Position numbers and translations under genes: made by a program. From the NCBI RefSeq assembly GCF_032854445.1, contig NC_088302.1, positions 53,536,046-53,600,045 of the forward strand: DNA of 64,000 nt, written 5' to 3'. The notes under the pieces were generated by a model. It was not told the DNA's origin. It did not search any database and saw nothing but the letters and a program-made list of their open reading frames with translations. How positions within the stretch are numbered: the stretch's first letter is position 1; each line of letters opens with the position of its first letter. Positions 6,601 to 48,780 of this stretch are shown here, piece after piece. This DNA comes from Liolophura sinensis (taxonomy: Eukaryota; Mollusca; Polyplacophora; Chitonida; Chitonidae).

Positions 6601-9600
6601 GCTGTTATTACTCTGATATGGGATAGTTATTAGAAAGCATCTTTGAATGTTTTTTTGATCATGTCTGTTTAACTTCAGTAATGTGAAGGACATTCATTCT
6701 GTGCTGGAAATTTCGGTCTATGATGAAGATCGAGACAAGAAATGTGAATTCCTGGGAAAAATTGCCATTCCATTGCTCAACGTAAGTGTATTTAATCTTT
6801 GTTCAACTTTCGTAGTGGAAATTCAAGGGTTCTTATATAGCTAAAGGGGCCTCACTAACTAAGAAGTTTTGCCGAGTGGAGCTTTAGCTTCTTCATGGTA
6901 CAGATTTGTTTATTTATTTTGATTGGGACGTTAAATCTGAAATAAGAAATTTTTTACTCCTATGAGGACAGTTAGGATAAGCAGTAGTGGAAACTGGACA
7001 GAAGACCAATCCTCCTGATTTAAAGCCATGGTTGAACTTGTGGGATTTGAACTGGCAACCCCATGGGTCAAATCCTAGGCAGTTCTCATCATTGATCATT
7101 AACCCTAGTGAGGGCCTAATTCACATGTTTATTTGATATTATTCATATATTTGCATAATAATGTTCATTCTGACCATAATGGTTGCCTTGCAGATTAAAA
7201 ATGGGGAGAGGCGGTGGTACGCTCTCAAAGACAAGAAGTTACTACGCAAGGTCAAGGGGGCCATTCAACTGGAGATGGACTTTGTATATAACCATGTAAG
7301 TTTTGGACGGGCGGGGGAAACTTAAATGAAAGAAAATAGTTGCGGGTCAGCGAAGAAAACTTAATCAGTAATCAGACGATGGTACATGTGGGAAGATCTA
7401 GAAGAAATTGGGATAAAGCATGAACAGACAAGGCCTGAGAGCATTAACTTTTCGATGAAATTTAACAGTATCTACCATACCAATTTTGGAATACTGTATC
7501 GGTAAAGTGAAATGATTAATAGAGAGGTTTCCAGTCGTCATTTCTTGGCTTACTGATACAGTGATTTCGTCATATTATCCAGTCAGTGTGACCCACAACC
7601 ATTGTGCACAGACTTTTCCAATGGTGTGGGTATTCATGCCAACTGCCATACATACCTGTACAGATGCCAATATCTTGTGACGTCATTACAATTTATTTCT
7701 CATTCCACTGATGTGGTTAGTGAAATTGAATAAAAATTTCTCGTTGAAAAGTGTATGAAAACCAATATTTACTAAAGAGAAAAACTGGTGCCCCCAGCCT
7801 AATCCTCAACATATTACCATGGAAACCACTGTGGTGGTAAGGAAATGAATAGTCACAATCAGGGGGGATAACTTTTGCTTTTTGTGAAATATTGAAGGGC
7901 TAAACAGCATTAGTTTTCTGATATTCAATGCCTTGGATTTAGAAGAAATCTAGAAATAAGAAGTGAAAAGATATCCAAGAAATTTAGCATGACTAACACT
8001 TGTGCATTTCTGATCTGTAGCTGAAGGCAGCCATCAGAACAGTGAATCCAAGAGAGGAAAAATTTATGCAACCTGAACCAAAGTTTAAAATATCGGTGAG
8101 TACACACAAATTTTATCTTGCATTTCATGTGAAACAGTCTGTGCTAAATATGTGATCTCAATGAAGCTAAATGTGTTCTCGAGTGTTTTCACCAAGTTGT
8201 TGGTGAAGTTTTTTTTTTTTTTTGGTAGATCATGAAACGAAACATTGACCGAGTGTCCAAGATTGCAGAATCTTTTGTGGAAGGAGGAAAATTTCTCCAA
8301 AGCTGTTTCGACTGGGAATCTAAAGCTCGGAGCATATCTGCCTTCACAGTAAGTTAATGCACGTTAAATCTAAATTTTGTTCACTTTTAACAGAAAAGAG
8401 TGATATTTGCCTGTCAGTATAACTTCCATTAGAAGCAGCAAGTTTGTACAGCTGGCAAGTAGAAATACTAGGACAGGAATAGTGGTCTGTGCAGATGTGT
8501 TTGTAGTCGCTTTGTTTCTGCAGGAATCGCACTATACTTGATGTCAGTTGATTTCTGTACTTGAAGGTTTAGAACTCAAGAACTTTGTAAGCATTAGCTT
8601 TCTTTTGTCTTACTCCATTCTTTCAGTAAACTCATTACACATGCCTTTTGTGTTAGAGTTTACTGTGATTTAAACTGTTCTCTGAATTGTTTTTAGTCAG
8701 ATTTACCTGATCATCATATCCTGATTTTTAACACAAACTTTACTCAGATTTGAATTGTTTTCTGAATTGTCCTTTGACAGGTTTTCCTGGTCATTGTCAC
8801 CTTAACACAAACTTTACTCAGATCTGAGTTGTTTTCTGAATTGTCCTTTGACAGGTTTTCCTGGTCATTGTCACCTTAACATAAACTTTACTCAGATTTG
8901 AATTGTTTTCTAACTTATTCTTCAACAGGTTTTCCTGATCATCGTCTCCTGTTTCGAACTCTACATGATTCCAGTGACATTGCTCATTGTCTTTCTGCAA
9001 AAGCTCATCGTTGTTACTGTTGTTGGAGCTTTTGCTGGTGAGCCCTCAACTGATGTAAGTGTATATTAGAATGGATATATGTATTTATGTATAAACCAGG
9101 GTGGGTACATGTATTTAAGCATAGGGCCTATGAGAGATGCACGTTCTCAGGAGGTATGGGGGGGGGGGGGGTCGCTCGCACAAATAGCGGAAGCTGAGGT
9201 TAGAACCCTGGTGGTACACGGTCTTCTGGGGTTAGAACCCTGGCGGTACACGGTCTTCTGGGGTTAGAACATAAATGTGTTGGGCAAATGGAGCAATTCA
9301 AAAAAATCTACACTCTGTCTTTGCTTATGATTTATTTGTTTTGTTTTTTTTGTGTGATATCCATACATGTGATCTATACAAGTTTATATAGATCACACTA
9401 AGCATTAGTCCATCTACAATTCTGACATTCATCATAACACTGAGTCCGTCTCCGCCTCTCAGACAAATCACGACACGTCTGCGCACTCCAACTCGATGGG
9501 AGCGATTTCACTACAGTCCACGCTGACCGCACCCAAACTTACCTGCACTAAAAACACAAGTTGTTTTTTATACCTTTTTGGATTGAATTAAGATGGTTGA

Positions 9601-12600
9601 AGTAGTTCTTGCTGATGGTATGAAACTTTTCTCAAGGATTTCAGTGCCAAAACTCAGTTGCATTTCACACCCAGAAGTAGGTCACTTGACGCCTCAAAAT
9701 GGCTGTCGACGGCAAGGCACTTAGTACCGCCGAAACTCTTGCTACTGCTGAAGCTCTTGCTGTCAATGTGACCACCACACAGCAAGTAAATTAGTTTCCC
9801 AGGTGAGGGTAGTAAATTAAGAGGATAGTATTGGAGATTCCACAGTAAAATTGCATATAAATGAGTACATGTGTCACAGTGAGAGGTTACTGCGTGTAGG
9901 TCTAAAACAGGCTACACGGTAACGCACATGGGCATAGGGCCAAACATGTAATCTAAGCCCAATTTGAGGTATATGCACGAGCTGCCCAAGTGGAACGCCC
10001 AAGAATGTGCATCTCTCATAAATCAGCATAGGTACATGAATTTATGTGTTAAAGGTTTGTACAGTTGTAAGCTTTATAACATTTCAAATTTTTTAACATT
10101 ATTATTATGTTATTATGAGAAATGTTGATCATACTCACTCATACATTCCTGCATTAACGAAAGTGTAGATGACATGAAATATACATGTGCCTAAGAAACA
10201 TTAGTCATTGGTCATTGATCGATAGACGCAAAGACATGTTACATATTCTTCAGTACATTATTAATTACCAATTATTCAAACAAGTAAATGAATAAATTGA
10301 CAGGGGGAGATCACTATTTATAATAACAGTTTGAGATATTTGATTACAAATAATTTGAGTGGAATTCCAAGCATGACATTGGGTGTTGGTTTTAGGATTA
10401 TGCAGATGATGAAGACGACGATGACGATGATGAAAAAGAAAAGGTAATAATTAATCACTTGTTATTTTATTGGATTTGTGAATCTTAACATTTCCAGACT
10501 TCCTTCATTTTTGTACTTGCATGTAAAAATGAGGATTGTTCAGCTGTGACACATTTTAAACCTGGAAATGTATATCTTGGCAAGTTTGAACTGATTGGAT
10601 GGGCTCTATCCAGACATTTTTGAAAGTTATAATGTGAATGGTGCAAAGAACATATTTTGCTACCAAAATATTTGAAAAATATACTGTATGATTTGTTCAG
10701 TTTTACAGCATGTAATCCGTTCCGGTTGTTATCTGTTGATATGGCATTAATAATGAGGAATGGAAGGTTGTTGTTTGTGTTGTGATTCATACATGCATGC
10801 TCATTTGGCTACAACAGTTTTCAAGTTTGAAAATTAACCAACTTTGAAAAGTGCTTATCAAAGATGTGAAGTACTAAAATTCATAGTGGTTTTTTTTGAT
10901 TATTGTTTTATTTCATTTTTAAAGTGATTCAATAATTTGTTCAATACCTGTTATTGTATGTTGTATTTTATCAATCAATCAGCCAAAGAAGGTAAACTCT
11001 TCATTGTATCTACCTTGGGATTTTGGGTTTAAGATTTTAAATTTTGACATACAGAGTTTTTATCTTCAACTTACAAATTTTTGTTTTACATGCTGGGTTT
11101 TAGTTAACACTAAATGTATATTTATGTTACTCGTGGTCCGGAATTCTCTTACATGCTCTTTCCTTACAGTTTGTCATCTATTCATTCTGCCTCAGTCCTG
11201 CTTCTTTCATTGCTAGAAATGTCACTGAAGTACAAAATTATATATTCGGATAGAAGCCATTGATATTGACCTGGTTCTGCTGGTTTACATTAGGTCATTA
11301 CTTTTCATTTATAGCCCGTTAAAAAGAAGACCTTCTGATGTAGAATAAAGTGTGCATCCTTCGTCATTCAGCAGCATTGTATTTCATTTCATCAGTACTT
11401 TAATACTTAAATCTTCAACCTTTTCGACCCCTAAAGCACCTTTTTTTTAAATTTATGCACACATTAATAATGAAAAAAACACCAAAAACGATTTGTTGTG
11501 TCACTAAAGATGAAAGCTTCATACAGCTTATTTCTCTATAGCCCATAGCCTTGAATGTTTTAAAATATTAGTCACTAATAGTCAAGGGTTCCTTGGCGTG
11601 CGTTAGTATATCGCGTGGGCATAAAAAATGTTAATGCTCCACCGTATATATATATATTTTTTTTTTGGAGATTTTCTTTAGTAGAACTTTAATGTTTTTA
11701 TTTTGACTCTTGACTTAAATTTTATCTTTCGCTACTGATTAGAAACAAGAAAATAATTCTCTTCATCTTTAACTTACATATCTTCTCATATATATCAGTG
11801 TCATGATTTCTTTTGCTGTATTCCAGGTTTCTCTTTAAATTTTTTGATTTCTTTCAATCATAGCTTTGATTTTGTTTAATTTTATTTGTTAGAGACGACA
11901 AAGTGTACAGAAACCTGTGGTAAAGGTGCAGATGTTTTACTAACATGAGTTTTGTAGAGCTTGATCATCCTTGCTTGTTTGTTTTGTAATCAGTCGACAC
12001 AGTATATATTACTGACATCCTTGTCTCGTGTGTTTGTTTGTGCATGTTTTGTGTTTCTAAGTTTGAAATCTGGCTCCTTGTGTTAAACAACACTCGTGTC
12101 AATACAGCTCTTTATTTAAAAGTGTGCTTTGCTGTAGAATCTAACAAGCTTATATTCACAAGTTTGTTTCCTTATCTTGGGTTCCCTGCTGTCTTGAATA
12201 TATTGTACGAGCTGTTACAGATTTAACACAAAAAAAGTGTTGTCAACATGTTGACACATACTTGTTACGTATACGTGTATCAGTTTGAAGTATTCATAGT
12301 TTTTTCTGCTGTAAAGAATGCTGCGATCATCTAACCCATAAAGTAAGCTTTATGTAACTGTTTCTGACTGTTTCCTGAAGTCCTAATTTACTTCTGGCTG
12401 AGCTAAACAGGGGTTGTATCTGAATTAGTACTTGATCCTGTCCTCAATCAAGGTGTCCCCATAGTTGGCGGGAGGACAGATTAATGTGGCTTAGTAAATG
12501 AGGTGGTGGCCTTCCAACCGTATAGGTTGGGCTAGTGTGAATTAGAACTTTGTTACAGCTAAAACTGATGTAATGTTTCTACTGTAACGATGTGCTACCT

Positions 12601-15600
12601 TCAATGTAATGTCAATGTGCTGCTGTCGGCACATGTGTAGGTACCTATTGCAGTCATCTTGAAAGGGTGGTATGTTGACAGATGAATGATATTTTGATTT
12701 AATACAAAACTTAATCACCATCACTCCTGATGACATGTATCCTCCAACATCCATCTAAATTTTTGCCTGCCAGCCTGATATTTGAAATACTTCTTATTTT
12801 TTGTTGAATGTGAATTTTGGCAAGTAAGGGCATTTGGAATCGCATTTTTTTGTAATGAGTTTTTTAACAAGTTTTTTTTGTGTGACTCCAAAAATATATG
12901 AGAAATATTTCCTTGTTGTAACAATTCTGAAATTGTCAGTGGCACCAGCAAGCGATGCCAGAGTCTACAAGTAGGTTTGAACCAGGACTTTGAACTTCAG
13001 TCATCAGGTGGTTAAGTTGATGCATGCTTTAATGTCTAAGGTCTACCTGTATGTACATGTAGATATACATCAATGTGGTCAAGGTGGTAATAAATGACAA
13101 GTAGAAACTTGTTTGCAGGTTTGGACTTTGACAAGTACATTCTGATAATGATACAACAGGTGTATTTGTGTCATGTGGTATATAAATCCAGAATTTCTTT
13201 TCTGCAGCTTGCTGATATCAGCATTTGTAGTCCGTGCTGTTTTCTCTCACTGAGTTCAACACAAAATGTTCATTCTTCTATGGAAAAACCAGACTTATAT
13301 TCAAATTACATCGTTGACTGAAAGACACAGCGATAAGAATCAGTTGTCTTGTGTAATATCATCCATTCTGACCTCTTTTGGAATTTTTTGTATTCAGGAA
13401 TGAGCCTGATAAACTGAACTGTCAGAGAGAGGAAGCCACTATACTGGGATACACAATATAAAGAGGTTTAATGCCCTGTGTAGTTGTATTATGAAGAGAC
13501 TCCAAAATGGAAATGGTGACAAGCCAAAATATTCACTAATAGCCAAATTTTTCTGCCTATTTCTCCTTAGGGTGAACATAAGGTTGGTTTATATATATAT
13601 ACCTGGTTTTTGTATGGGTTACAACTGGACTTGCACAACACTTGTATTCACACCAGAAATTCACTAGCCATGAACAGTTGTGTAGTGGACTTGTGATATC
13701 ACCGCTGGAGTTTAGGAAGCACATTTGTATCATGTATATTGTATAAAATGGTACATGGTATGTTGAGGGACTTTCTTGGTTGGTATAGCTGGTACATTCT
13801 ACAATCCTGTGTGTATATAAGTACTTAAATGAAAATATTTCAAGTTTTGACAAATCACTGTCAGTCACTGTTAAATACCAGCAAAATATGATTTATAGGC
13901 CTACAGTACACTCTTACATTGTTGTACATTTTATTTCATTGTTAGAAAAAAGATTTAAAAAAAAATACTAATATACTTGTAGACAAAGATATTGAAATTA
14001 TAGGCTACTTTGGAAGCCATCTCATTTTCAAAGTGTCAAAAATTTCCAAGAACAGAATTGTAATGTTTCTTTGATCAAGTCTTTCAGTGAGGAATTCAGG
14101 TGTGTGTAATTGTTCAGGTGAAGGATACATCACCTGATGTACACAGCGGGTTTGTTTTTACTTTAAATGCACAGCCAAATATATGGGTTAAATATAGATG
14201 CACCAGCTTGACTTTATAAACCAGAGGATTTCATACCCTAATGTTTCTAACAATTGCCCATGAAGTGGGTAAATGACATAAACATGCCAGAAAAATGTGC
14301 TCCATAGTTCCTTTCACAGAATTTCATAATTAAAGTGTTTTAATATGGTTTTTAAAATAGTTTTAATACATGTAGAACTAATTGCTTTGTTAGAATTTTT
14401 AGCTATTGTAGGTGCTGTGCAAAGGAAATTGCTCAAAAAGCTTTGCTCTTAACAACTATATTGAAGTGTGAAATGCTAAGATGTGAAATTTGTCCACTGT
14501 CTTTTGCCTTCATCACTAATCAAAAGATACCTTGCCGAGTTTGTCAAAAGAATGTTTTTAAAAGGTGATAATTACTTTCACTGGAAATGAATGTTGGTAA
14601 TCATGTTTTCTCTCCGGTGTATGAACCTTACAATTAAAGAGTTTAATTTAATTGAGAATTTCCTCTCTTAACTTTGAGCACGATGAACATGAACAGCCAT
14701 TGTTTCCTTGGTGGTTGGTTAGTGCGGAGGAGGGAAAGTTCAAAATGAAGAATTCTGGAATTCTATGATCCACATAATGTTTCTTAAATCTGTAATTTTT
14801 TAATGTGTTTGGAAGTGCTGAAGTAAATTACATTTTTTTTTTTCATTTTTTGTTCTGTCCTAAAATAACTTTCATTAGCCAATTAGCTGAATTGTCAGCC
14901 AATTCAATCATCACAGCTGGTTTCCCAATGAATCTTCAATTTAACATAGAGTTATTTCAGTCCTTAAGAACTGTCAACCCAGGTACATGTACTTAAGCAA
15001 ATCAAATAATTAAGTAAAATTTCACTCATTTTGTACATGAAAAACAGGAGTTGCCCTTTTCAAAATAGTAGTCTACCATGATTTAAAGTTTTAAGTTTTC
15101 TATATAAGTGGTGCAGAGTTCTGTTTTACCAAGTAACTTCAAAGTGATAGTTATCTCAGTATGAAATTTTGCGACAAGATGTGGTCATGTTTGTATGATG
15201 CTTAAAAACCATACTGCTAACTAGTTATGCTCATAATCCAGGTAGGTATTGTCAGTGCAATTTCTCCAACTTTCTGAACCATTGTATGGATACAGGAAGT
15301 TGGGTCTCCCAAAATAATTCTGCCTTGACTAAACTTCATTTTGTTCTGTGATATCCCAAAGCACAGGAAGATGTTAATGTGGTGTTGGTGTTCTTATTTG
15401 CCTCCAGGAAGAAAAGAAATCCTTCAAAGAGAAGTTACAGGCCATCCAAGAGGTGTGTTTGCAAGTACAACAAGGAATGGACATGGTGGCTTCCATGGGA
15501 GAGAGGGTCAAAAAGTCAGTACTTATGCCTACTTACTGAGATACCACAATTCCTAAGTTATTTACACAGGCTATTCCTAAACAAAGTGAAAAGAGTAATA

Positions 15601-18357
15601 TGTATGAAAAAGTGCTGGTAAATGATAAAAACAAACTGCCAAAAAAAAAAACAAATTGTTGTATTATTTAGATGTGTAATTGTATGAGATTGCCAGTGAT
15701 CAACTGGAAGTTTAATTTTAGCTTAGAAGGAACCAGACCAGATACTGACTGTAAAATGGAATGAATGAATGATTATGGCACAGTGCCATTTAGGCGATAT
15801 TTCAGCCATATTGCAACAAAAATATTGAGTATGTTAAAATGACCTTTCTTGTTACAGCACGTTTAACTGGACGGTGCCGTGGCTGTCCATGCTGGCTGTA
15901 ATCGCCTTGTCGGCTGGCACTTTGGTCCTCTACTTCATTCCACTGAGATACCTCATCATGGCCTTTGGTAAGCTTTTCTCTCTCTATATTCAGAGTGTAA
16001 CCAGACTATGGTGTCCTCATCCAACCACTGTGATTTAACCAGAGTTTGGTTTCCTTGTCCACCCACTGCGATGTAACCAAAGTTTTAGTGTCCATATCTA
16101 TACAGTACAGAGTTATCACACTTTGTCTTAAATATAAACACTCTACAGTGTTGCATGGTTTGGTCGATACATTGACACATTAAGTGTAACCATGCTTTGT
16201 TTTCCATATTTAATCTGCCATAACAAGCATACAAAATGCTATCACCAGCTTTATCATTCATTTTCTTTTCAGTTATCGTAGTACATTAGTGAGTAAACTT
16301 GGGCTATAGGATGAAAAATTGAAAAGAAACCTGTTCATGGATATGCATGTGCTGTCGTTCATGTATTAAAAGTTTCTTGTTTTGTATAAATGTATATAAA
16401 AACATTACTAGTGTCTTCCATCTGTTTTGTGTGTTCCAGGTATTAACAAGTTTACAAAGAAGTTACGTGCTCCTAATGCTATTCCCAATAATGAACTGAT
16501 GGACTTCCTGTCACGTGTTCCGTCTGACAGTGAATTGGTAAGGTTACAGTGCTGTCTAATACAGACAAGAGACATGGTGGCCAAATATGGACGTAAAACC
16601 CTACAATGGCGAGCCTCCAGATTATTGTGGATTATGGCCCTGGCCCTGGCCCCAATGGCGAGCCTCTGGGCTCTTGTGGATTATGGCCCTGGCCCCAATG
16701 GCGAGCCTCCAGATTATTGTGGATTATGGCCCTGGCCCCAATGGCGAGCCTCCGGATTATTGTGGATTATGGCCCTGGCCCCGGGATCACGATGCAAGCT
16801 TAGTCTTACCCTAATCCTTCGACCTTTTCATATATTTGCAAGGTGTTTATTAAAGCCTATTCTGAAGGCATTATTCTGTGTAGGCTGATAAAATCAAATC
16901 CAACTAATTCAGTTTTGTCTCCAAAATTATGTGTATAAACTGCACTGAAAGTTGCTATTTCATACGTGAAAAGGTTGAGGAATATTCGGGTAAGCCAAAA
17001 TTTCAGTCCTTTAATTTGGTATGTTCCCTTCCATTATTTTAGCTGAAATTTGGTGTACAATAATTTACCTAGAATTTACATTGTGACTATTTTGTCCTTG
17101 TTGCATAAGAAATAACAGTCTTAAGGTGATTTGAGATGGCTTGTGATCCCAGGGCCTAATATGATTGTGATATTCACTCTCTATCGGTGCCATGGAAGCT
17201 TCCCATGATCAAAACTTCAAATGATGGTACCACAACCAAGACTTTTAACTTTCATCTTTCTTTTTTGGGGCAGTTAGTGCCCTTACAAATTCCATTTAAT
17301 GAGCCATCGTTGACATGGCACTTAATGTTGTGAAACACACATGTGCAAGAGCACTCTTTCTGGTTGTGATTCTTGGTCATTCAACACAGCTGGGCGCTGG
17401 AGGTGTGAGCAGTGTGTTCACAGGATTGTACATACCCGTGACAAGACCAATTAACACACTCACGCTTCACTTAACATGCAACTGTTAGCTCTAGTAGAAT
17501 GGCGACACAGCTCCTGCTTAAATGCACATCTCACACATGGTGTGCTTAGTGAGTCCTGTCAAAACGTTTCGGTGAGCAACAAAATGTTAGCACTAGTACC
17601 ATCTCTGCATTTTTCTAGCAGAATGCAGGCAAGAGTATGTCTTCCCAAAACAGGCAGATTAAGGTTAGACGGTGGACCACCAACAAATAGGCCAACATGG
17701 ATAAGCATGTACGTCTTTCAAAACATCACCAAGTGATGAATAGGTGTCTAGGCTAAAGTAAATAAATACCCATATGTGTTTTAGAAGCTAATTTACAAAT
17801 ATAGATACAGCACTTCACTGCTCCGACTTACTGTTAGGTCAGTCTGTTGAGAGACGTCACTGGGTTAAACTATTTTAGAAATGCCAGAGGAACTATATGT
17901 GATAATTTCCTCCCTGCCCGTATGTGGGAAGGTCTGCCATCAAGCTGCATCAGGGTTCTGCCCAGTTTGCTACCACCATAATGCTGGATGCAGCCATTCA
18001 GGTGAAATATTCTGGAGTATGGCATAAAACACCAATCAAATAAATCAGATATATGGGATAAATAATTGATCGCACTCAGCATAAAATTATTGTGGCTGTT
18101 GGTATGTGGGGAGAAAATATGAATTCATATGAACCTCATTTCAAATGATATCTGAGGAAATTAAAAGGGAAAATCCATGTATAGTTCCTCTCATTGTTTT
18201 GGCTAAATTTGAAAAATGTGTAACTCTCTTGAAGGCACTCCCGTTATGGCAGTATTTCTTGAAAGCTAATGTCTCTCTGTTCTTGTTTCAGGTTCAGTTC
18301 AGAGAGTTGCGCCCTGACATGGCCCTCATCTCAGGAAAGACGAAAAAGAAAATCTGA
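651..18357 (+). CDS. MCTP: MCTP: multiple C2 and transmembrane domain protein (5' part missing)
   Basis: Coding exons read from GT/AG junctions and a continuous frame: 651-827, 1129-1259, 4231-4417, 5241-5295, 5937-6078, 6679-6781, 7194-7295, 8021-8095, 8229-8348, 8929-9054, 10396-10443, 15408-15514, 15858-15967, 16440-16537, 18292-18357 (TGA stop). Without optional microexons this gives 548 residues. Domains, counted from the first residue seen: a C2 domain about 19-150 ([15 protein letters not shown], then [13 protein letters not shown]), a further C2 about 170-300 ([11 protein letters not shown], then [14 protein letters not shown]), an acidic linker, and two membrane segments at about 360-400 and 461-492 ([16 protein letters not shown]). 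The Asp residues of the Ca2+ loops are present. The tail after the last membrane segment, [18 protein letters not shown], is typical of MCTPs. In the family these are Ca2+-sensing proteins of ER, endosomal or synaptic vesicle membranes. Full-length proteins carry three C2 domains, so the first and the start codon lie before the window. Family call is firm; paralogue is not decided. Confidence 0.95.
2138..2405 (-). mobile_element. Family-1 SINE, diverged, near full length
   Basis: Tail complement TTTATTTATTTATTTGATTG, AAGAATATTTCACTTATACG, then GAGGAAGCCAGCATGAGCTG and CTGGGTCATTGCGCCATGCT near the head. Diverged and without obvious target-site duplication, so probably old. Confidence 0.75.
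3418..4080 (+). repeat. Minisatellite, about 60-bp unit, about 11 copies
   Basis: Units begin AGGTGCTTCAGGTGCACA and contain TCCTCTGGAGTCTCTGG and TTGTCAAACACAACTAAT. Units vary in length by loss of inner blocks. It lies in the MCTP intron before the exon at 4231. Confidence 0.9.
4645..5065 (+). repeat. Minisatellite, about 22-bp unit, about 18 copies
   Basis: Unit TACACATATTTTGTCTGCAG plus TC, with variants such as CTTTGTCTACAGGCTGCACA. Each TTTTGTCTGCAG block looks like a splice acceptor. The array ends 175 bp before the true acceptor TTAACGTCTACAG of the exon at 5241. Confidence 0.9.
6908..7112 (-). mobile_element. tRNA-derived SINE-like fragment of another family
   Basis: Begins TTTATTTATTTTGATTGGGA and, read on the minus strand, contains GGTTGCCAGTTCAAATCCCA, a good box-B-like element. 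Different from family 1 in its body. Lies in an MCTP intron. Confidence 0.5.
8690..8928 (+). repeat. 74-bp tandem repeat that duplicates the acceptor and start of MCTP exon 10
   Basis: Three extra copies of the acceptor plus first exon bases (AG ends at 8700, 8780 and 8854) precede the true acceptor, whose AG ends at 8928. Spacing of the last three is exactly 74. Copies read CAGGTTTTCCTGGTCATTGT against the true CAGGTTTTCCTGATCATCGT. Confidence 0.9.
9129..10020. mobile_element. Candidate non-autonomous DNA element, 892 bp, with 23-bp terminal inverted repeats
   Basis: The left end TATGAGAGATGCAC is matched by GTGCATCTCTCATA at the right end, and the match extends with mismatches to about 23 bp. 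The inside has no transposase. It carries a short direct repeat with GGTTAGAACCCTGG (about 9200-9270) and an 11-bp hairpin at 9368-9397. No clear target-site duplication seen. Confidence 0.55.
10396..10443 (+). other. MCTP: MCTP acidic 48-nt exon
   Basis: A 16-codon exon between a TTTTAG acceptor and a GTAATA donor, phase 0 on both sides. It reads [16 protein letters not shown], an acidic stretch like the one that lies between the two membrane segments of other MCTPs. Because it is symmetric it can be skipped without changing frame. It sits alone in a 6.3-kb gap between the exons ending at 9054 and starting at 15408. Confidence 0.75.
10983..10991 (+). other. MCTP: Candidate 9-nt microexon of MCTP (PKK)
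   Basis: The nine bases CCAAAGAAG are bounded by AG (10981-10982) and GTAAAC, and keep frame (Pro-Lys-Lys) between the acidic exon and later exons. The upstream tract has weak pyrimidine content. The call rests on splice-site fit and on reading frame only, so it is tentative. Confidence 0.35.
11315..11338 (+). other. MCTP: Candidate alternative terminal exon of MCTP (PVKKKTF-stop)
   Basis: After a pyrimidine-rich TTTTCATTTATAG acceptor the frame continues as PVKKKTF and ends at TGA (11336-11338). An AATAAA polyadenylation hexamer follows within six bases, at 11344-11349. If used, it would give an MCTP that stops after the first membrane segment and acidic linker. An equally possible explanation is chance, since A/T-rich introns often contain AATAAA. 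Confidence 0.25.
11893..11919 (+). other. MCTP: Candidate 27-nt microexon of MCTP (RRQSVQKPV)
   Basis: Nine codons between TTTGTTAG and GTAAAG, phase 0 on both sides, reading [10 protein letters not shown] pyrimidine-rich tract precedes it. The RRQS motif has the form of a basophilic kinase (PKA-type) site. It would extend the acidic linker between the two membrane segments. Symmetric phase makes it a good cassette exon, but only cDNA can confirm it. Confidence 0.45.
16602..16784 (+). repeat. Tandem repeat, about 43-bp unit, four copies
   Basis: Units CAATGGCGAGCCTCCAGATT followed by ATTGTGGATTATGGCCCTGG. Lies in the last MCTP intron. Because 43 is not a multiple of three, overlapping frames stay open across it; these are not genes. 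Confidence 0.9.
17910..18050 (+). mobile_element. Family-1 SINE, 5'-truncated
   Basis: GTGGGAAGGTCTG, ACCACCATAATGCTGG, GTGAAATATTCTGGAGTATG and AAAACACCAATCAAATAAAT. Lies in the last MCTP intron, about 240 bp before the terminal exon. Confidence 0.8.
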
Positions 18358-18618
18358 AGCCCTTTGTGTAAGGAGACATGACCATGGGATGAGCAATTCA
18401 GAGGTCCTCCGGAGACTTGACTGACTAAACATCTTCTTGCTAACTATGCTCAGTTTTGTGTGATACGTCATGATGGATGCTCAACTTGTCACTTTGACTG
18501 ATGCCTGATTGTGGCTGCTATGTGAATAGGACATGAAACTAATCCAAGTGCTCATTAGCAGTCTTTTAGAAACTTGTTATGATTTTGAAAGAGAGAATGT
18601 TGAACAGCACCATTTTGG

Positions 18619-18624
18619 AATAAA
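18619..18624 (+). other. Polyadenylation signal AATAAA, MCTP
   Basis: First canonical hexamer after the MCTP stop codon at 18357. Alternative sites further downstream are possible, since the region is A/T-rich. Confidence 0.5.
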
Positions 18625-21447: not shown

Positions 21448-21634
21448 GCCCGATAAGGCCATCATACTGTCGTACTGCTGTTCCGGCGATGGCACGACCA
21501 TGCGAAACGATGGCTTGATGACACGAGGAGATGGCACGATACTATCGTTTGCCGCATCGTTCCATCGCATCGTGTCATCGCTTCACATCATCGTACCATC
21601 CCTTCGTGCCATCGCCCCATAGCCTTATCGGGGC
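21448..21634. mobile_element. Foldback element with CGATG-rich arms
   Basis: GCCCGATAAGGCCAT at the left is matched by the inverted ATAGCCTTATCGGGGC at the right. Between them are many words such as CGATGGCACGA and their complements (TCGTGCCATCG), so the two halves can pair over much of their length. A family-1 SINE-like tail follows at about 21670-21710. A similar patch is at 50696-50815. Confidence 0.6.
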
Positions 21635-22521
21635 TCTATGCTCCACCCATATATCTGACAATACTATTATATTAAAGTGAAATATTCTTTAGTGCGGTTT
21701 AAAACACCAATTAGTAGTTTAGACACTCGTTCAAATGATCGTGCTATGAGTTCACGTTTCATGCAGTCAGATTTTATTGCATGGTCTTAAGTGCCATCCG
21801 GTACCATGAATACCGTGTAGTACTGTTACGATGTAAATGAAGACTATCTGCAATATGGATATCACAGAGTTGTCTTTCGCACTTGAACTGAGTGGAAATG
21901 CACAAACCGTAATGGAAACAGTCCCTTTGTGTGATGGGATGTAAGGAGTGGGTCGTTGACAAGTGGTGCAGAAAGGACTTGTCTTTAACTGCTAAGAGGC
22001 GGGGATTTATTTCCGGCCTTGGACTGATAATTTGTAGATTCTCTCGTTTTCAGCAAACTAGTGACTAGAAAACTACAACTCTTGCGTGACCGTCTACACA
22101 GCCTGACCGTCAACGTCCTTCTATCCATAAAAATAGCCGTCCTCGTATATAAATGAAAAATTCTTGTTTGTGGCGTTAAACAACAATCATGGAACCAGGC
22201 ATGTAGATAATGAATCTGGTGCAATAACCATTATATCTAGGTTGACTCTGACAACAATGACAAACGACCTTGAACCGTAACCGATGACCATGTGTAACGT
22301 CAGATGAAGATACTGATGATATATAATAACAGACAACCTTGGATGTTTTAACAGATATTTCAGGACAAATAGAGATTGCATTGAATAGTAACAATTGACT
22401 TGGGGCAATAACAGATGACTATTTCAAACGACCTTGGGCAGTAAAAGGTGACTATTATAGGGGACAATTGCAGATGACGTTGGATAGTAACAGATGGCTC
22501 GTCGCAACAATAGATGACTGG

Positions 22522-22856
22522 ATAGTGAGTGAGTGAGTGCTTGGGGTTTAACGTCGTACTTAACAATTTTTCAGTCATATGACGATGAAGGAGGACTTAG
22601 AGTGCATGTCCTATTGTCACAGGACGGATTTCAACCGCTATTTTATCCAGTGCTGCTTTACAAAGATGACTTACCGAAGGCAAATAAGCTGACCCGCCCG
22701 AGCCATTGTACTGATACGGGTCAACCAGTCGTTGCACTATCCCCTTAGTGCTGAACGTCAAGCGAGGAAGTTACAACTTCCTCTCTTAAGGTCTTAGGTG
22801 TGGATTGACCCTGGATCTGTCGACCTCGAAGAAGCTCTACCAAGTGAGCTATTGGA
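22522..22856 (-). mobile_element. Family-2 tRNA-derived SINE, near full length
   Basis: Reverse orientation: GTGAGTGAGTGAGTGCTTGG tail, TTTAACGTCGTACTTAACAA, TTTTTCAGTCATATGACGAT, GATACGGGTCAACCAGTCGT, then a head that on the minus strand reads TAGCTCACTTGGTAGAGC (box A) and GGGTCAATCC (box B). Confidence 0.85.
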
Positions 22857-29603: not shown

Positions 29604-29638
<35 letters not shown>

Positions 29639-32600
29639 AGTTTCATCTTCAACAAGCCATGTTGAGATCAGAGATCCGAATTCAAGATGGTAGAGGTAGG
29701 AGGCTCATACCATGATGCATTTGTCCAGATGAATAATTGAGTTTAATCAAGCACACATGGTTGGGAAGTGTTCAGAACAATGTGTTTCTGTCCATATCCT
29801 GAAGGAAGTTATTTTCAAGTTACATGTTCTGTGATTGTCATTTAAACATTCTGCTGACTATTTTGAAGCAACTTCCTCATTACTTCACATTCCTTTTTGA
29901 AGATCGCACCCATGAGAGAATTTCATGATCAGTACATTCAACTTGTGACTTTCATGATATTTATTTTCATACAGAATAAGTCAGTCATTCTTACATGTAG
30001 TCGTAAAAATAAATCAGACACTCACAATGGGCAAAAATAAAACGTGGTAGTAAATCTGTTAAACTAAACATAACTTTCATCTTGTAGAGAATAGGGATGT
30101 GTATGATTAGATTTAAAAGGAAAGGAGTTTTCAGAATTGCCATTGCGTATTAAGACCACTAGCCTTTGACAGATAATGTCCCACATTTTAGTATGTACAA
30201 AATGTAATCTCTGCCATGTTATTTTCCTGTGTGTTATTACATACATATGCTTATATAAAAGGTAACTACAGATACTACACTGTATTTGTCATGTATTAAA
30301 AGTTGTGAAAAAATACCTAGACGTGCAAGTCGGAAGCTTCCATATATTAGTTGTATGTAATAGGGGTGGGGGGTATTCCCCACCCCCAAACTATATGTTC
30401 AACTGCAGTAACCTGATTCAATTTTGCCCACAGCTAAACCTATAGATTTGCTGGCCAAGTACATCAGTGCAGAAGATGATGAGTTAGCCATTGAGATGCA
30501 CGAGCCCTACACATACCTGCACGTAAATATCTCTGTTTATGTTTATTAGTCACACTTCGTTGGTTTGCATATTTGGTACATAATGTTTCCTGTGACCTTG
30601 GATTTCAATAACAACAACAACAGTTGATGTGTACCCTTATTCTTCTCATTTTTGGGACATCTGATCAGCTGTTTTTAGCTAATACTCTTGAAATTGTAAG
30701 AGGAATACAGTTTCTCTTCTGTTTTTAGCTTTCATCTCTGCTGTTATCTCCCCAATGTAAGGAGAATTATAGTATTCAGGTGTATCTAAGTTGTATTGTT
30801 CCTGTGGGTTCCTCTAGTTCTCACCAAGGTATGACAATGACTGCTCACAGGTATGACAGTGACTGCTCACAGGTATGACAATGACTGCTCACAGGTATGA
30901 CAGTGACTGCTCACAGGTATGACAATGACTGCTCACAGGTATGACAGTGACTGCTCACAGGTATGACAATGACTGCTCACAGGTATGACAATGACTGCCC
31001 ACAGGTATGACAATGACTGCCCACAGGTATGACAATGACTGCTCACAGGTATGACAATGAATGCTCACAGGTATGACAATGACTGCTCGCAGGTATGACA
31101 GTGACTGCTCACAGGTATGACAATGACTGCTCACAGGTATGACAATGACTGCTCACAGGTATGACAGTGACTGCTCACAGGTATGACAATGACTGCCCAC
31201 AGCTATGACAATGACTGCTCACAGGTATGACAATGACTGCTCACAGGTATGACAATGACTGCTCACAGGTATGACAATGACTGCTCACAGGTATGACAGT
31301 GACTGCTCACAGGTATGACAATGACTGCTCACAGGTATGACAGTGACTGCTCACAGGTATGACAATGACTGCTCACAGGTATGACAATGACTGCTCACAG
31401 GTATGACAATGACTGCCCACAGGTATGACAATGACTGCCCACAGGTATGACAATGACTGCTCACAGGTATGACAGTGACTGCTCACAGGTATGACAGTGA
31501 CTGCTCACAGGTATGACAATGACTGCTCACAGGTATGACAATGACTGCTCACAGGTATGACAATGACTGCTCACAGGTATGACAATGACTGCTCACAGGT
31601 ATGACAATGACTTCTCACAGGTATGACAATGACTGCTCACAGGTATGACAATGACTGCTCACAGGTATGACAATGACTGCTCACAGGTATGACAATGATT
31701 GCTCCCAGGTATGACAATGACTGCTCCCAGGTATGACAATGACTGCTCACAGGTATGACAATGACTGCTCACAGGTATGACAATGACTGCCCACAGGTAT
31801 GACGATGACTGCTCACAGGTATGACAATGACTGCTCACAGGTATGACAATGACTGCTCACAGGTATGACAATGACTGCTCACAGGTATGACAATGACTGC
31901 TCACAGGTATGACAATGATTGCTCCCAGGTATGACAATGACTGCTCACAGGTATGACAATGACTGCTCACAGGTATGACAATGACTGCTCACAGGTATGA
32001 CAATGACTGCCCACAGGTATGACGATGACTGCTCACAGGTATGACAATGACTGCCCACAGGTATGACGATGACTGCTCACAGGTATGACAATGACTGCTC
32101 ACAGGTATGACAGTGACTGCCCACAGGTATGACAATGACTGCTCACAGGTATGACAATGACTGCCCACAGGTATGACAATGACTGCTCACAGGTATGACA
32201 ATGACTGCTCACAGGTATGACAATGACTGCCCACAGGTATGACAATGACTGCCCACAGGTATGACAATGACTGCTCACAGGTATGACAATGACTGCTCAC
32301 AGGTATGACAATGACTGCTCACAGGTATGACAATGACTGCTCACAGGTATGACAATGACTGCTCACAGGTATGACAATGACTGCCCACAGGTATGACAAT
32401 GACTGCCCACAGGTATGACAATGACTGCTCACAGGTATGACAATGACTGCCCACAGGTATGACAATGACTGCTCACAGGTATGACAATGACTGCTCACAG
32501 GTATGACAATGACTGCTCACAGGTATGACAATGACTGCCCACAGCTATGACAATGACTGCTCACAGGTATGACAATGACTGCCCACAGGTATGACAATGA

Positions 32601-35600
32601 CTGCCCACAGGTATGACAATGACTGCTCACAGGTATGACAATGACTGCCCACAGGTATGACAATGACTGCTCACAGGTATGACAATGACTGCTCACAGGT
32701 ATGACAATGACTGCTCACAGGTATGACAATGACTGCCCACAGCTATGACAATGACTGCTCACAGGTATGACAATGACTGCCCACAGGTATGACAATGACT
32801 GCCCACAGGTATGACAATGACTGCCCACAGGTATGACAGTGACTGCTCACAGGTATGACAATGACTGTTCACAGGTATGACAATGACTGCTCACAGGTGT
32901 GACAATGACTGCTCACAGGTATGCAAATGGAAATTCAGAACTTTATTATCATTTTATATACATTTGGAGGAGACAGCTATTGGCAGCGGTGTAATTTCTC
33001 TCTGGTTGGACACAGGGTATGACCATCACAGACCTAGAGGATCTGTTAGAAGACATTAAGGTGTACCTGGAGTTGGAGGAGGGGAAGAATGTGGACTTTT
33101 GGAGGGATATCATCATCGTGACTGAGGATGAACTGAAAAAACTTCGCAAACTTGATCCCAGTATACGAGGTGAGGATTACAACACACTGGTTTTCTGAAT
33201 CATTATCTGAGTAAAGGCATATTTGGTTGGAAGTGGCTAGATGTAGTCATGGGTGATTAATATAATTTCTGATCAGGTCAACACAGGTATGAAATTCACT
33301 TGAAAATGACCGTTTATTCTGGAAAACTGTCTTGTCGAGAGATGAAGATTGGTGTCTGATTTCACTGTCATCAGTGGTATATTGTTATGTCTCAAAAGTG
33401 AAACTGTTGAATTAGATATCATTTATTTTCATCAGTCAGTAGTTTGTCTACATATATATTAGTTTGTGGTGATATTTTCAGTACAGTTTGATACGTAAGT
33501 TTGTTGGAGGAAATGTGTCCATGTTTTTCCACAATAAGCTCAAGGACTAATGGAGTAATTTTCACCAAATTGTTCTTGGAGCTTTATGTCATGGATATTT
33601 CAACTTGAAAAACTTTTTGGGTATGACCATTCTCTTGCTGCATGTTGCAAGGAAGAATCTTGTCCTCTTGGTGTCTTCAAAATGAAAGGTCTTATTTGGT
33701 TTGAAGCTTTGAACAAGGGCCTCTTGCACTTATTGAGATGACAAGTATTTCTATCTGAACGTCTGTCTCTATGCTGACATTGTTGCAACGAATAACCTTC
33801 CTTGTAATTTTCCTACAGATCATGTAGGGGATCGCAGGGAAGGCATTAACCAGGCTGTGACCAGTGAGGTGTCTAACGTGTTCAAAGGGAAGACGACCAA
33901 TCAGCTTCTGTTGTTGGAGGAGCAGATCCACAAGAAGCTGCGTGGTGGAGAGGGTGTGGACATTGGGTATTGGGAATCTCTTCTTCAGCAGCTTAAAGCC
34001 CACATGGCCAAGACTAGGCTACGAGAAAGACACCAGGAAGTCCTCAGGCAGAAGCTCTTCAAACTTAAGCAGGAGGTGAACTCTCCAGAAACCATAACCT
34101 ACTTTAACATTATTTGGATTTTCTTAGATTAACCCAGCATTTGTTTTAGCTATTTTAAGCACAATTTAATCAACACATTTATACTGGTGTATTTTTAATA
34201 TTTTGAAGATGAGTTCTGAGTAAAATAATACATTTGTAATGCCTTTATTCTGCCCTCTGTAGTCTTGTGTACAATATTAAGACACAATCAGCTGATTAAT
34301 TTAGTAGTAACAAATATACATGTAGGTGTATGGACTAACACTTACACTGCAGTAGCCATGGCCTTACCGGGCTCATTATCTGGAAGATAGGTTGACTGAC
34401 ATGTACAGGCAGATAATCTCTGAATCTAGTCATTGATATATTTATTTATAAGTAAAAACTGCTAAAAAGAAAATGAATCAGTTTATTATGTTTTAGAACA
34501 GATGTCAAAATGTCATGCTAATGTACACCTAGAAGTGATGACATGTGCATTCGTTTATGTATGATGGTTTTTCCATTAGCACTTTGCATATATCTGCATT
34601 ACCCTTATGGATACTTGCAGCAAGGCATTGAGTCAAACCCGCTGTTCCCTATTGTGCAAGAGGGTAGTGTATCTGAAAGGTCCCAGTCCCCAGGGGGGAT
34701 TCAGAAACAGGCACCTGCCAAAGAGGCAGACCTCAGACCTGGAGGAAGCAGCCAGAGCCCTGAGGCCGAACCAGGAAACAGTAACGATGCCTCAGACCCC
34801 GAACCTGGCAACAGCAAAGAGAACCCCACACAAGAGTAAGCAGTCTTTCTTACCATAACTTACATGAATCTTTGTGTGTGTAAAAATCCTTCCTAAAAGC
34901 ACTCGCTCTTAGAAGAAAGTTTTAACAAGCGCATACAGTGTTTGCACGTAAACAGAGCTAAGGCCAGAGGCCACTTGTTGGCTTTGAAAAGATGATCAAC
35001 TTCATCTTTTTTTTCTGTTTGATACTGATATCTTTAATAGCGGAAGAGGTCAGGACTGGTCAGTCTGATGCCAGTATAGCATAACTGTCGACTGTTAAAT
35101 GTCACAAAAGATAGCTATAGATGTTAGCGTATGGAAGGCCAATTTCTGGTTCTGGCATATTCTCTGTACAGTGCAGCTAAAATACTGGCAGTATAGTGAT
35201 AAACCCTAACCATTCATTGTCTTGTCTAGGGTGGAGAGTGTACTGACGGAGGAGGACCTGCTAGATCAGAGTGTGGATGAGTACGAGGCTGGCAAGTACT
35301 CCCCTAAGCTGATCCGCCCAGAGGACTTGGACTATGACACAGTCATCTATGAGACAGAAGATGACCTGAAGAAGCTGGCATTTGCCAGAGAACAAGTCCA
35401 GACCACTGGACGAGTGAAGGTAGGTTAGTCCCCATAAGTTGGAGTAGGTTAGGAGAGGTCTGCGACAAGTCGGGGTAGGTTAGGCGGGTCAGTCTGTTGG
35501 ACATTCCGGGTTGGTTAGGAGGGGTCAGTCCATGTGACAAGTCAGGGTAGGCTAGGAGTCAGTCCATGTGACAAGTTGGGGTAGGTTAGGATAGGTCAGT

Positions 35601-38600
35601 CCATGTGACAAGTTTGGGTAGGTTAGGAGGGGTCAGTCCATGTGACAAGCCGGGGTAGGTTAGGAGGGGTCAGTCCAAGTGACAAGTGAATGAATGTAAT
35701 ACAGATGAGATGTGAAGATGACAAAGGAATGGACATTTTGTTACTCATCATGTAATGAGCACTTCACAAGACCCAAAGACTTTCATTTTGGTAATCTTCT
35801 CTTTCTTCCCATCATAATGCAGGCTGCCATTGTATAAGTGAAATATTCTTGAATACAGCGTAAAACACTGATCAAATAAATAAATAAATCTATGTATTTG
35901 TTGTAAATTTTTTCAGATTTATGTCTGGATTATAATGCTTGTAATACGACTTGTGAAAATAAATTTGAAAGCTAATTTATTGAGTTGTGTGAATGTGGCA
36001 TTTGTCTGGCAATACCATTTGTGCACATGTTTAACCTTGCATCTCCTGTATTTATCGCTTATCATTTGTACAAATTCTTTTTCCAGTTTGATCATCTTTC
36101 ACAGTATGTAATACTATATTGCATTTGTAGTACAGCATGTAACACATGGAGAATAAAGCGGGAATGTTTTGTTTGTCTATAGATGGACCAGGAGAGTGAG
36201 TTCATCAAGAAAGCCAGAGAAGGTATGAATGATGAGGAAGCCCAGTTCAGTGTGGAGGTGCCAATAGAGCAGCAGGCCTTCCTCTGGTCTGACAAATACA
36301 GGCCCAGAAAACCTCGATTCTTCAACAGGGTTCACACTGTAAGTACAGACAAAAATCGAACATTTAGGTGTAGTGCACGTTGTGGCGTAGTGCACGTTGT
36401 TGAGGACTTGTTGCAGAACAAGTCCTCACATTTAGGCTTTGCTCACACTGCATGTACAAAAACAAAATCTTCATGTAACAATTTGACTTCCTCCACGTTA
36501 TACATGTATATGCATATATATATAAATCTACATATATTTATATATATATACATGTATAAGAAAAAACAAAGGAAACCTACTCAAATTACTACATCTGTGA
36601 TTTCAAACTGCAGTTGGAATACATCCCTGACGAGAACGAAAGTTCAAATCTGCAGTTGGAATACAACTGTAGAAGTTGGAGGTTTCCTTACACCCATTCC
36701 CCACATCAGAACAGTCAACTTCTTTCTCATGTACATGTATGTACAGAAAAAACCCCGAACATTTAGGCTTAGTCTTCACTGTAAGTACAGAGAACACTAA
36801 CATTTAGGCTTAGTGGTCACTCTAAGTACAGAAAACCCTACCATTTAGACCATTTAAGCCGTCATTGTAAATACAGAGAACCCTACCATTTAGGCTTAGT
36901 CCTCATGGTAAGTACAGATAACCCTACCATTTGGGCTTAGTCATCACTGAAAGTACAGAGAACACTAACATTTAGGTTTAGTCCTCTCTCTACAGAAAAC
37001 CCTACTATTTAGGCTAAGTCGTCACTAAGTACAGAGAACCCTAACATTTGGGCTTAGTCCTCACTGTAAGTAGAGAAAACCCTAACATTTAGGGTTAGTG
37101 GTCACTCTAAGTACAGAGAACCCTAACATTTAGGCTTAGTCATCACTGAAAGTACAGAGAACACTAACATTTAGGCTTAGTCCTCACTGTAAGTACAGAG
37201 AACACTAACATTTAGGCTTAGTCCTCACTGTATGTACAGAGAACACTAACATTTAGGCTTAGTGGTCACTCTAAGTACAGAGAACCCTAACATTTAGGCT
37301 TAGTCATCACTGAAAGTACAGAGAACACTAACATTTAGGCTTAGTCCTCACTGTAGGTACAGAGAACACTAACATTTAGGCTTAGTCCTCACTCTAAGTA
37401 CAGAGAACCCTACCATTTAGGCTTAGTCCTCACTGTAAGTACAGAGAACACTAACATTTAGGCTTAGTCCTCACTGTAAGTACAGAGAACACTAACATTT
37501 AGGCTTAGTCATCACTGAGAGTACAGAGAACACTAACATTTAGGCTTAGTCCTCACTGTATGTACAGAGAACACTAACATTTAGGCTTAGTCATCACTGA
37601 AAGTACAGAGAACACTAACATTTAGGCTTAGTCCTCACTGTAGGTACAGAGAACACTAACATTTAGGCTTAGTGGTCACTCTAAGTACAGAGAACCCTAC
37701 CATTTAGGCTTAGTCCTCACTGTAAGTACAGAGAACACTAACATTTAGGCTTAGTCATCACTGAGAGTACAGAGAACACTAACATTTAGGCTTAGTCTTC
37801 ACTGTATGTACAGAGAACACTAACATTTAGGCTTAGTCATCACTGAAAGTACAGAGATCACTAACATTTAGGCTTAGTCCTCACTGTAAGTACAGAGAAC
37901 ACTAACATTTAGGCTTAGTCCTCACTGTAGGTACAGAGAACACTAACATTTAGGCTTAGTCCTCACTGTAGGTACAGAGAACATTAACATTTAGGCTTAG
38001 TGGTCACTCTAAGTACAGAGAACCCTACCATTTAGACCATTTAAGTCGTCATTGTAAATACAGAGAACCCTACCGTTTAGGGTTAGTCCTCACTGTAAGT
38101 AGAGAAAACCCTACCATTTAGGCTAAGTCGTCACTAAGTACAGAGAGCCCTAACATTTGGGCTTAGTCCTCACTGTAGGTACAGAGAACACTAACATTTA
38201 GGCTTAGTGGTCACTCTAAGTACAGAGAACCCTACCATTTAGGCTTAGTCCTCACTGTAAGTACAGAGAACACTAACATTTAGGCTTAGTCCTCACTGTA
38301 AGTACAGAGAACCCTAACATTTAGGGTTAGTCCTCACTGTAAGTACAGAGAACACTAACATTTAGGCTTAGTGGTCACTCTAAGTACATAAAACCCTACC
38401 ATTTAGGCTAAGTCCTCACTAAGTACAGAGAGCCCTAACATTTAGGCTTAGTCCTCACTGTAGGTGCAGAGAACACTAACATTTATGTTTAGTCCTCACT
38501 GTAAGTACAGAAAACCCTACCATTTAGACCATTTAAGCCGTCATTGTAAATACAGAGAACCCTACCATTTAGGGTTAGTCCTCACTGTAAGTACAGAAAA

Positions 38601-41600
38601 TCCTAACATTTAGGCTTAGTCATCACTGTAGGTACAGAGAACACTAACATTTAGGCTTAGTGGTCACTCTAAGTACAGAAAACCCTACCATTTGGGCTTA
38701 GTCATCACTGAAAGTACAGAGAACACTAACATTTATGTTTAGTCCTCACTGTAAGTACAGAAAACCCTACCATTTAGGCTTAGTCATCACTGAAAGTACA
38801 GAGAACACTAACATTTAGGTTTAGTCCTCACTGTAAGTACAGAAAACCCTACCATTTAGACCATCATTGTAAATACAGAGAACCCTAACATTTAGACTGC
38901 GTCCTCACTGTAAATACAGAGAACCCTAACATATAGACTGAGTCCTCACTGTAAGTACAGAAAATCCTAACAGTGTTAGACCACGCTGTAAGTGTTTAAG
39001 ATAGGCCTGACATTTACACTTCAATAGTTTACACTTTGAGTGCAGAAGAAAGAAATCCTAACATTTAGACTTAATCAAGTGTAAGTACAGCAGAAAAATC
39101 CTTAACAGTTAAGCTTAGTCCACACAAAGTACAGAAGAGAAACCTTTTATAAACGTTTAGACTTAGTCCACACTGTAAAGTACTGAATAGAAAACCCTGA
39201 TGTTTAAACTTCCACACTGCAAGTAAAAAAAACTCAGACATTGAGACTTTAACCACACCGTAAAGTACAAGAGGGAAAAACCTGACCTTTTAGGCTTGGC
39301 GCACAATGTAAGTACAAATCATATAAACCCTGTTGTGCTGTCTTCAGTATTTATCCTAGAACACTTGTAACACTACATATTTATATTTAAAATTATTGAG
39401 TCATATTCATGCATAGAATCTCTTTCACAATTACATTGTCATCAGTCCTCTGACCTTTGACCTACTTTCTTAAGTCTGAGTTTATATTTTGCCGAATGAC
39501 ATTATATTCCATATTTCCATATTTCAGTGAAGTATCGTATATGGATTCACTGCAGCTGCTTTCTCCAGACTACCATAAATGACCTTTAACCTGCATGTAC
39601 ATTATTAGATCATGGTTCATATTTGAAGGGTTTTGTTTAGTGTGGTTTCATGATTTATAACAGAATTAGCTAAGTGCAATCCCTTCAAATATTTGAATTT
39701 TAGTTTTTGTGAGAATAGTCCTCTTCCTGACTTGTCTATATGTACATGCAAATGTAGACATGTATGGTGCTCATGTCATAAGAAGTAGCCTCTCGTCTGA
39801 TATTCTTTGTGTTAAACAACAATCAAGCAAATAAATAAAACATTGTTTGTTCTTTTATTTCAGGGTTTTGAGTGGAATAAGTACAATCAGACTCACTACG
39901 ACATTGATAATCCCCCCCCTAAAATAGTCCAGGGCTACAAGTTCAATGTGAGTATGGGATGGGAGAATCAATGTTAAAGTAAATGCTAGGGGAAGTATCT
40001 CAAAAGGTACTGCCTCTATTGGGCCCAGGTCACACATACATGTAAAGGACAGTAACACCTATGGGATGTTCCACTTTGATGGCTGTGTGCATTTTAACTA
40101 CCGTAGCGACTTTAGCATATTACAATCATTTGTTCAAGTAAAAGAAAGCTAAAATATGAAGTAAGGCTCTCCATACAGGCAACTGAAAACTGTGCATAAA
40201 AATACTTTCATTTAGTTTTTCAGATTTTTGTAAAGAGTGTTGAAAGGCATTCAAATATTTGAATACTGTGGTGGGCTATAAGCGCCATGCTGATGGTATC
40301 TAGGAACTCTGACGTCACATCACCTTTTTTTCCTGATGATCACCAGAAGGAAGGAATTTTTGAGAACATTATTTCATTAAGCTTTTACCCATGGGTAAAA
40401 TGAGTCATTCCAACATTCAGAATTGTGATTAGAGTTGGGAAAACTTCATGTGACATAAAAGTTCCTAACCACTGATAGTATGGTCCATAAAGCCCACCTT
40501 AGCTTTCAATGTTTGAGTGCCTTTTTTTCAAAAATGTAAAAAATATGGAAAGCATATTGATGTATAGTTTTAAGTGGTCTGTTTAGTGATGCCTTCTTCG
40601 ATTTTTACAGGTCTTTGCCTTTAAGGTAAATGTTAGGGGTGGTATCTCAAAAAGTGTGGCATGTATTGAGCTGTATCTTTGTAGTCTTGTAAGGAGACCA
40701 GTCTTGCTACCAATTCAGTTTTTTTTCTTTTTTTTTTTGGTGCTGTATAAAAATTCAATGTTACCAATACTCATTAATGATCAAAACTAAGAGCACACAA
40801 TAATTACATCCGTGTACTAGGTTCAGCCCGGAATTGTTTTCAATAGAACAGTTGTTTCTAATTTAGACTTTGAAAGTTGTTGAATAATTCAGTGAGATGT
40901 GGGTGCACATGTACCTCTGAACATGTGCACATATGTATATCTAGTATACATCTTTGAAGATGTGTGTTGTGACATATGTAATAATGTACTGGCCGAGGCA
41001 TCGATTTTCTCTCAATGTTCTGTATGTCTTTTGTTTCACAGAATGCAAACATGTCATGAAGAGCTTAATTTAGAAATTGAGCATGAATTATTTTGTCTTG
41101 CAGATATTTTATCCTGACTTGATAGACAAGCATAAGACACCAAGCTACACACTGGTAAGTTTCAGCTCACATGGTCTCAGCATGTTGATCAGGATACCTG
41201 GACTGTTGATCAGGGTACTGGGACTGTAGGAATAAATCCTGGTGGAATGTCAGAACATCTTTGATGAAAAAAATTGGTTGAAAAAAAATATATAATATTT
41301 CAAAAATTTTGTTCGTGCGATTTTCGTATTCTCACTAACAAAAGCCCAAGGAGAAGACCTTGTTGAGACATGTGTAAAAGTGTTGTCATGTGTATAAAAG
41401 GGCTTCAAGGTGTAGGAAAGGGTTGCGAGATGTAGGAAAGGTTTGAGACTTAAAATAGTAGAGGTGTACTTGTATATGGACAGATTGAGATTTGCATGAA
41501 ATGGTGGAGATTTGTATAAGATGATCGAGATAGAAGACGCCTCGGAGACCTGGTGTCACTGGATCATTCATGTACCCTGACACTAAATTAGGTTAATCTC

Positions 41601-48446: not shown

Positions 48447-48780
48447 TTCAATGACAATTACTCATGCATATAGGTGCAGTCCTCTTTAGATGTGAATAAC
48501 TCATAAGCTCTGCCCTTATGGAAGATACATAGGAAAGTTTCTCTATGATGTCTCATCTGTGTTTCACCTCTGAGATTTACGGCCATGTTGTTAGGGTATT
48601 CTGTAAGTTGCTCCACATCTCCAAAAACTAAGTCAAATGAATAGAATTTATAGCTAGACATTCACACGTGCATGGATACATGTTTATATTGCATGGACAT
48701 TAAAGTTATCCCAAGATATTTTAACATCTACACGCTGAATATTGCCTTGCAATATTCTTCGTCGCGAATAGACTACATTT

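Follow-up and report, generated by a model that had tools for sequence, protein, structure and literature searches.

The window, by which we mean the whole stretch of 64,000 nucleotides analysed here (C8:53536046-53600045, in a chiton genome assembly of 609,464,459 bases and 632 contigs), contains two genes on the plus strand with tandem arrays in their introns, and a third gene on the minus strand (Table 1). The first gene is one that we take to be MCTP, the domain evidence itself being C2 domains: one open frame runs over 11 joined exons and includes two such domains, and four C-terminal exons were read separately. An intron of this gene (10443-15408) may contain a number of very small exons, one of them perhaps near 10984. 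The second gene encodes Cactin, a splicing factor, and its frame matches the domains Cactin_mid and CactinC_cactus. The third gene is represented by one exon that matches Aa_trans (PF01490), and a further open frame of 183 aa lies on the minus strand at 51249-51800.

Table 1. Genes, exon and tandem arrays of the window (plain positions) and arrays of the sampled gene regions (positions with L numbers)
Feature	Position	Strand	Basis or remark
MCTP gene, partial, 15 exons modelled	651..18357	+	exon joining, C2 domains
22-bp array (TRF also 44 bp), 179 nt before MCTP acceptor 5241	4651..5061	+	unsupported
74-bp array, 3.0 copies	8728..8950	+	TRF; own-intron test
MCTP exon with copied acceptor	8929..9054	+	open frame over 11 exons; C2 domains
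Cactin gene, 18 coding exons, 725 aa	23869..42661	+	open frame; Pfam domains
84-bp array, 2.7 copies	27572..27797	+	TRF; own-intron test
22-bp array, 95 copies, 92 nt before Cactin acceptor 33016	30827..32923	+	suggestive
37-bp array, 44 nt past Cactin donor 35419/35420	35464..35687	+	marginal
41-bp array (54 copies, TRF 36758-38972) and apparently decayed copies toward donor	36339..38972	+	TRF, alignment
my5 acceptor array, 42.9 copies, 32-bp unit	L006:1546-2906		
my16 donor array, 12.7 copies, 82-bp unit, 53 exon bases	L019	-	
my17 donor array, 18 copies, 31 bp	L020	-	
Donor array, 21.8 copies, 38 bp	L030:6669-7498		outside modelled part, excluded from counts

An earlier note on this DNA had described five arrays whose units contain the core of the splice site that they adjoin, and a sixth that resembles its neighbouring acceptor. 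Each junction, taken as 40 nt (15 exon and 25 intron), was compared by alignment with the intron it belongs to and, as controls, with 200 fragments of other introns. By this test, the copying is firm at three junctions. The array before MCTP acceptor 8929 ends 22 nt within the exon, and its copies contain both the acceptor and the start of the exon (own score 43, best control 24, 0/200 controls as high). The array at Cactin exon 27438-27584 begins 13 nt before the end of the exon, with the donor inside the copies (61 versus 23, 0/200). The third is the Cactin donor after 36338. Its main array begins 419 nt farther downstream, and by eye the copies adjoining the exon seem decayed; the 41-bp unit contains CACTGTAAGTACAGA of this donor, with an alignment that extends over the junction (31 versus 25, 0/200). 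Two further cases are suggestive. The array past Cactin donor 35419 shares with it only the 10-mer GGTAGGTTAG, one exon base included, and scores marginally (20 versus 21, 4/200; unit rank 0.011). For Cactin acceptor 33016 the unit rank is 0.000, none of the other sampled acceptors reaching its score, and the alignment spans the junction, but the own-intron test is not significant (20 versus 24, 36/200). Where two units of this last array meet, the 22-bp consensus reads CACAG/GTATGA, so that an acceptor-like site is directly followed by a donor-like one. The resemblance to MCTP acceptor 5241 is unsupported (18 versus 30, 45/200; unit rank 0.205). The observation as a whole is partly confirmed, being half right in its details.

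The window introns hold 15 arrays, and the intervals given by TRF cross a junction in two of them, 8728-8950 and 27572-27797, against 1.84 expected from random placement; three or more crossings would arise by chance with probability 0.27, four or more with 0.09 and five or more with 0.02. At these counts the window alone is uninformative about a hotspot at junctions, and that inference was dropped. In a check on copy number between haplotypes, searches with the flanks of two window loci returned no second full-length copy in the assembly; one of them gave pieces of 36 and 45 bases elsewhere.

The analysis was extended to 35 gene regions chosen regardless of repeats, comprising 17 myosins (from 81 matches to PF00063) and 18 neurotransmitter-type transporters (from 109 matches to PF00209), for which places rich in exon matches were taken. 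Gene models were built by spliced alignment to family profiles and came out free of stops, with donors limited to GT or GC and acceptors to AG; the GT-AG ends of all 185 of 185 introns in the window and the first myosin models have to be read with this restriction of the aligner in mind. In cleaning, 14 intron pairs were merged around exons shorter than 18 nt, which may have removed true micro-exons, and 17 terminal introns were dropped where the end exons were shorter than 15 nt. The 281 sample introns were thereby reduced to 250, which together with the 31 window introns make up a set of 281 introns (median length 580 nt) with 562 junctions in 37 genes. Before cleaning there were 121 arrays, with 20 ends that cross against 14.7 expected. 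The dropped introns include locally duplicated junctions, namely my12 at 81 (31), sn14 at 2402 (29) and sn10 at 6589; in the last of these the model is wrong, yet a real donor array is present. Doubtful spots remain in the models at a phenylalanine-rich stretch of sn15 and an insert in my2.

Within the 281 cleaned introns TRF reports 115 arrays, and 16 of these cross a splice site with at least three exon bases. The crossing arrays lie at 10 donors and six acceptors, in 16 of the 281 introns (about 6%) and 15 of the 37 genes. They include 5-72 nt of exon, their edges do not fall at the splice motif, and their median match is 90%. By alignment, the own-intron score reaches at least 40 at 17 of the 562 junctions, and at least 28 with 0/200 controls as high at 24 junctions. 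A further donor array (L030:6669-7498) starts within a transporter exon beyond the profile, and its consensus holds a strong donor. No clear wholly exonic array was found in 45.8 kb: of the five that were flagged, four occur in end exons from which the last intron had been dropped and one in a doubtful stretch of a model.

The likeness between units and junctions is specific. Measured against other junctions, the nearest junction is matched within the best 1% by the units of 22 of the 115 arrays, whereas the far junction of the same intron is matched so well by 2 of 115. The 22 include every one of the 16 crossing arrays. The other six do not cross by TRF; in the alignment the match crosses the junction in two of them, both in Cactin (30827 and 36758). 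When these six and the array at 35464 were aligned, three crossed, again all in Cactin (30827, 36758 and, by one exon base, 35464), and four matched intron only. According to the earlier note, a likeness no higher than for shuffled junctions would speak against the pattern; in this sample no such equality was seen. Since units resemble their nearest junction far more than they do other junctions, the pattern is genuine outside the window too, and junction-straddling arrays are a real feature of this chiton genome, present on many contigs.

The earlier note had further argued that chance placement would not match junctions so often, and this is mostly wrong. If an array may start anywhere from one unit into the upstream exon to one unit into the downstream exon, placement that is blind to borders predicts 10.52 crossings where 16 are observed (P 0.051), so that some 10.5 of the 16 are accounted for and the excess, 1.5-fold, is borderline. 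Random placement predicts most of the crossings because the introns are short (median as above) and the arrays dense. Before a mechanism is read from repeats that match a junction, their placement should be controlled for.

The excess could nevertheless mean that splice junctions are true hotspots of duplication, through paused transcription, R-loops or splice-like microhomology. Several results point this way: when TRF score and exon overlap are varied in nine settings, observed crossings exceed the expected ones by a ratio of 1.52-1.81 (P 0.015-0.051), units of at least 20 bp give 16 crossings against 9.06 expected (P 0.012), and the edge rate per unit length climbs toward the junction (0.038, 0.041, 0.048, 0.052, 0.080). 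A bootstrap over genes places the ratio between 1.06 and 2.03, and in the sample without the window 14 of 100 arrays cross against 8.68 expected (P 0.043). Just inside the exon (-40 to -3) array edges are about as dense, at 0.63 per kb, as they are in the intron (0.48-0.77 per kb in five bins from 10 to 640 nt), which favours blind placement; at -3 to 10 nt the density is low, 0.14 per kb (one edge). Taken together, the excess over blind placement, the rise in edge rate and the uneven edge density suggest that placement may not be fully blind, and a mild border preference beyond chance is possible though unproven. Against hotspots, the array edges are spread over 5 to 72 nt of exon and are not stacked at the motif, donors and acceptors are both affected, and the significance is borderline after several looks at the data. 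Random intronic windows are, moreover, locally duplicated more often than junction windows: in the uncleaned models 401 of 5,146 such windows score at least 40, which would give 73.7 junctions where 18 were seen, although this contrast weights long arrays by their length and was for that reason replaced by the test on array counts. A check of young two-copy arrays for microhomology (11 cases) revealed no pattern. We regard true hotspots as unlikely, and as slightly less so a combined reading in which borders are mild to moderate hotspots (about 1.5-2-fold), splicing or transcription itself shapes where duplications begin, and a few percent of introns carry intact decoys that are ignored. The interpretation offered by the earlier note is partly supported: of the proposal that arrays start by local duplication over exon-intron borders, the duplication itself fits the anatomy of the 16 arrays, with their 5-72 nt of exon, but the borders are at most mild hotspots.

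What the crossing arrays copy can be read from their units. Only copies that agree with the real site in 17 or more of 25 bases were counted, a design that omits decayed copies. GT or AG is kept in 115 of 119 aligned copies. By a simple splice matrix made for the analysis, 81 of the 119 equal or exceed the real site, 38 of these 81 being in one array. In one myosin intron the acceptor (my5, L006:1546-2906) is preceded by a series of 42 near-identical aligned copies, one about every 32 nt; AG is kept in 40 of them, 38 score at least as high as the real site, and the copy indicated by the reading frame is the last. Use of any of the other copies (n = 115) would shift the frame in 76 cases and bring in an in-frame stop in 38, and in one case the frame stays open. 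Since 114 of the 115 would break the frame, the site used is presumably the outermost one, that is, the first donor or the last acceptor. Under exon definition the site nearest the other end of the exon wins; under another rule, the first AG downstream of the branch point serves as acceptor. The used donor would also be the first one met, but the used acceptor would be the last, and this fits exon definition better than the first-AG rule. The main value of the finding lies here, in that the arrays form a ready set of natural experiments on the choice of splice sites. RNA-seq data for this chiton species are reported as deposited (PMC11068029).

The array anatomy, rates, copied sites and frame consequences established on the sample are brought together by a reading that we consider probable, namely that these are ordinary minisatellites whose placement is almost blind to exon borders and which survive across borders through the outermost site. 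Minisatellites would arise by local tandem duplication, with a birth of the slippage type, and would grow by slippage or unequal exchange, at places chosen almost without regard to exon borders. Arrays born wholly within exons would be removed by selection. Those that cross a border could survive: the original splice site and the reading frame would be preserved by a single outermost copy, the remainder of the array becoming intron. Splicing would then have to pick the outermost among many near-identical sites, as exon definition should do.

Splice-like units might instead have been kept to regulate splicing, perhaps in the role of decoys or back-up sites, as the many intact copies (the 81 of 119, 38 of them in one array) could suggest. 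The high match within arrays, however, marks them as young or homogenised, and intact copies are then expected without selection; at my17, position 3184, the real donor is stronger than 16 of the 17 copies. No sign of units being retained for an effect on splicing was found in the sequence, and we regard this reading as improbable.

We give even less credence to the possibility that the arrays are by-products of intron birth, in which an exon segment bearing AGGT is duplicated in tandem, as in the Rogers model. The copies do hold exon and splice-site sequence, the model has been proposed for comparable arrays in amphioxus (in the part of PMC3087553 considered here), and four of 14 affected positions are not common to any sampled paralog. 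None of the 281 cleaned introns, on the other hand, has both ends in one array; an apparent instance, my17 3184-3709, proved to be a zero-length exon artefact of the spliced alignment and was rejected. The remaining 10 of the 14 affected positions are common to paralogs, close to the proportion for introns overall (176 of 250, in two families), so the arrays sit mostly in old introns. Intron gain by tandem duplication carrying splice signals is described for ATP2A1 and potato RdRp (PMC4974935, from the part considered here). The chiton arrays are alike in that a local duplication carries splice signals; in those two cases the duplicate becomes a new intron, whereas the chiton introns merely lengthen.

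The closest counterparts of the border-crossing minisatellites that we favour are the 'mirage' minisatellites of amphioxus, which straddle exon-intron borders in Adh3, the globins BflGb6 and BflGb9, troponin C and PGBD5 (PMC3087553, PMC3902484, as far as the passages considered go). As in those, the chiton units span 5' or 3' borders in unrelated genes, with AG or GT signals in the copies. The amphioxus authors report or suggest, in the same passages, that regular splicing is undisturbed (PMC3087553, PMC3902484; Canestro 2002 via these), whereas the chiton arrays are known from the genome sequence and the reading frame alone. Our case also differs in concerning a mollusc and in that a gene sample blind to repeats provides a rate together with a placement control. 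Among the open-licence literature matches listed, none by its title concerned mirage-type arrays in molluscs, which is weak evidence of absence. The chiton arrays are accordingly of a known kind, mirages, in an animal group for which we found no earlier report, and what was a curiosity of a few lancelet genes is extended to a mollusc and given a rate among sampled introns.

Two other kinds of repeat were noticed in the window. A SINE-like element, recognised by eye from a stretch like TTTGATTGGTGTTTTACGCCGTACTCAAGAATATTTCACTTATACGAC, recurs at about 2139-2400, 28266-28716, 43518-43780, 48779-48930, 57525-57795 and 60571-60845. At 57895-59819, near the amino-acid transporter gene of the minus strand, lies an array of 83 copies of 23 bp with long open frames on the plus strand, the unit of which is, by eye, unlike the neighbouring junctions.
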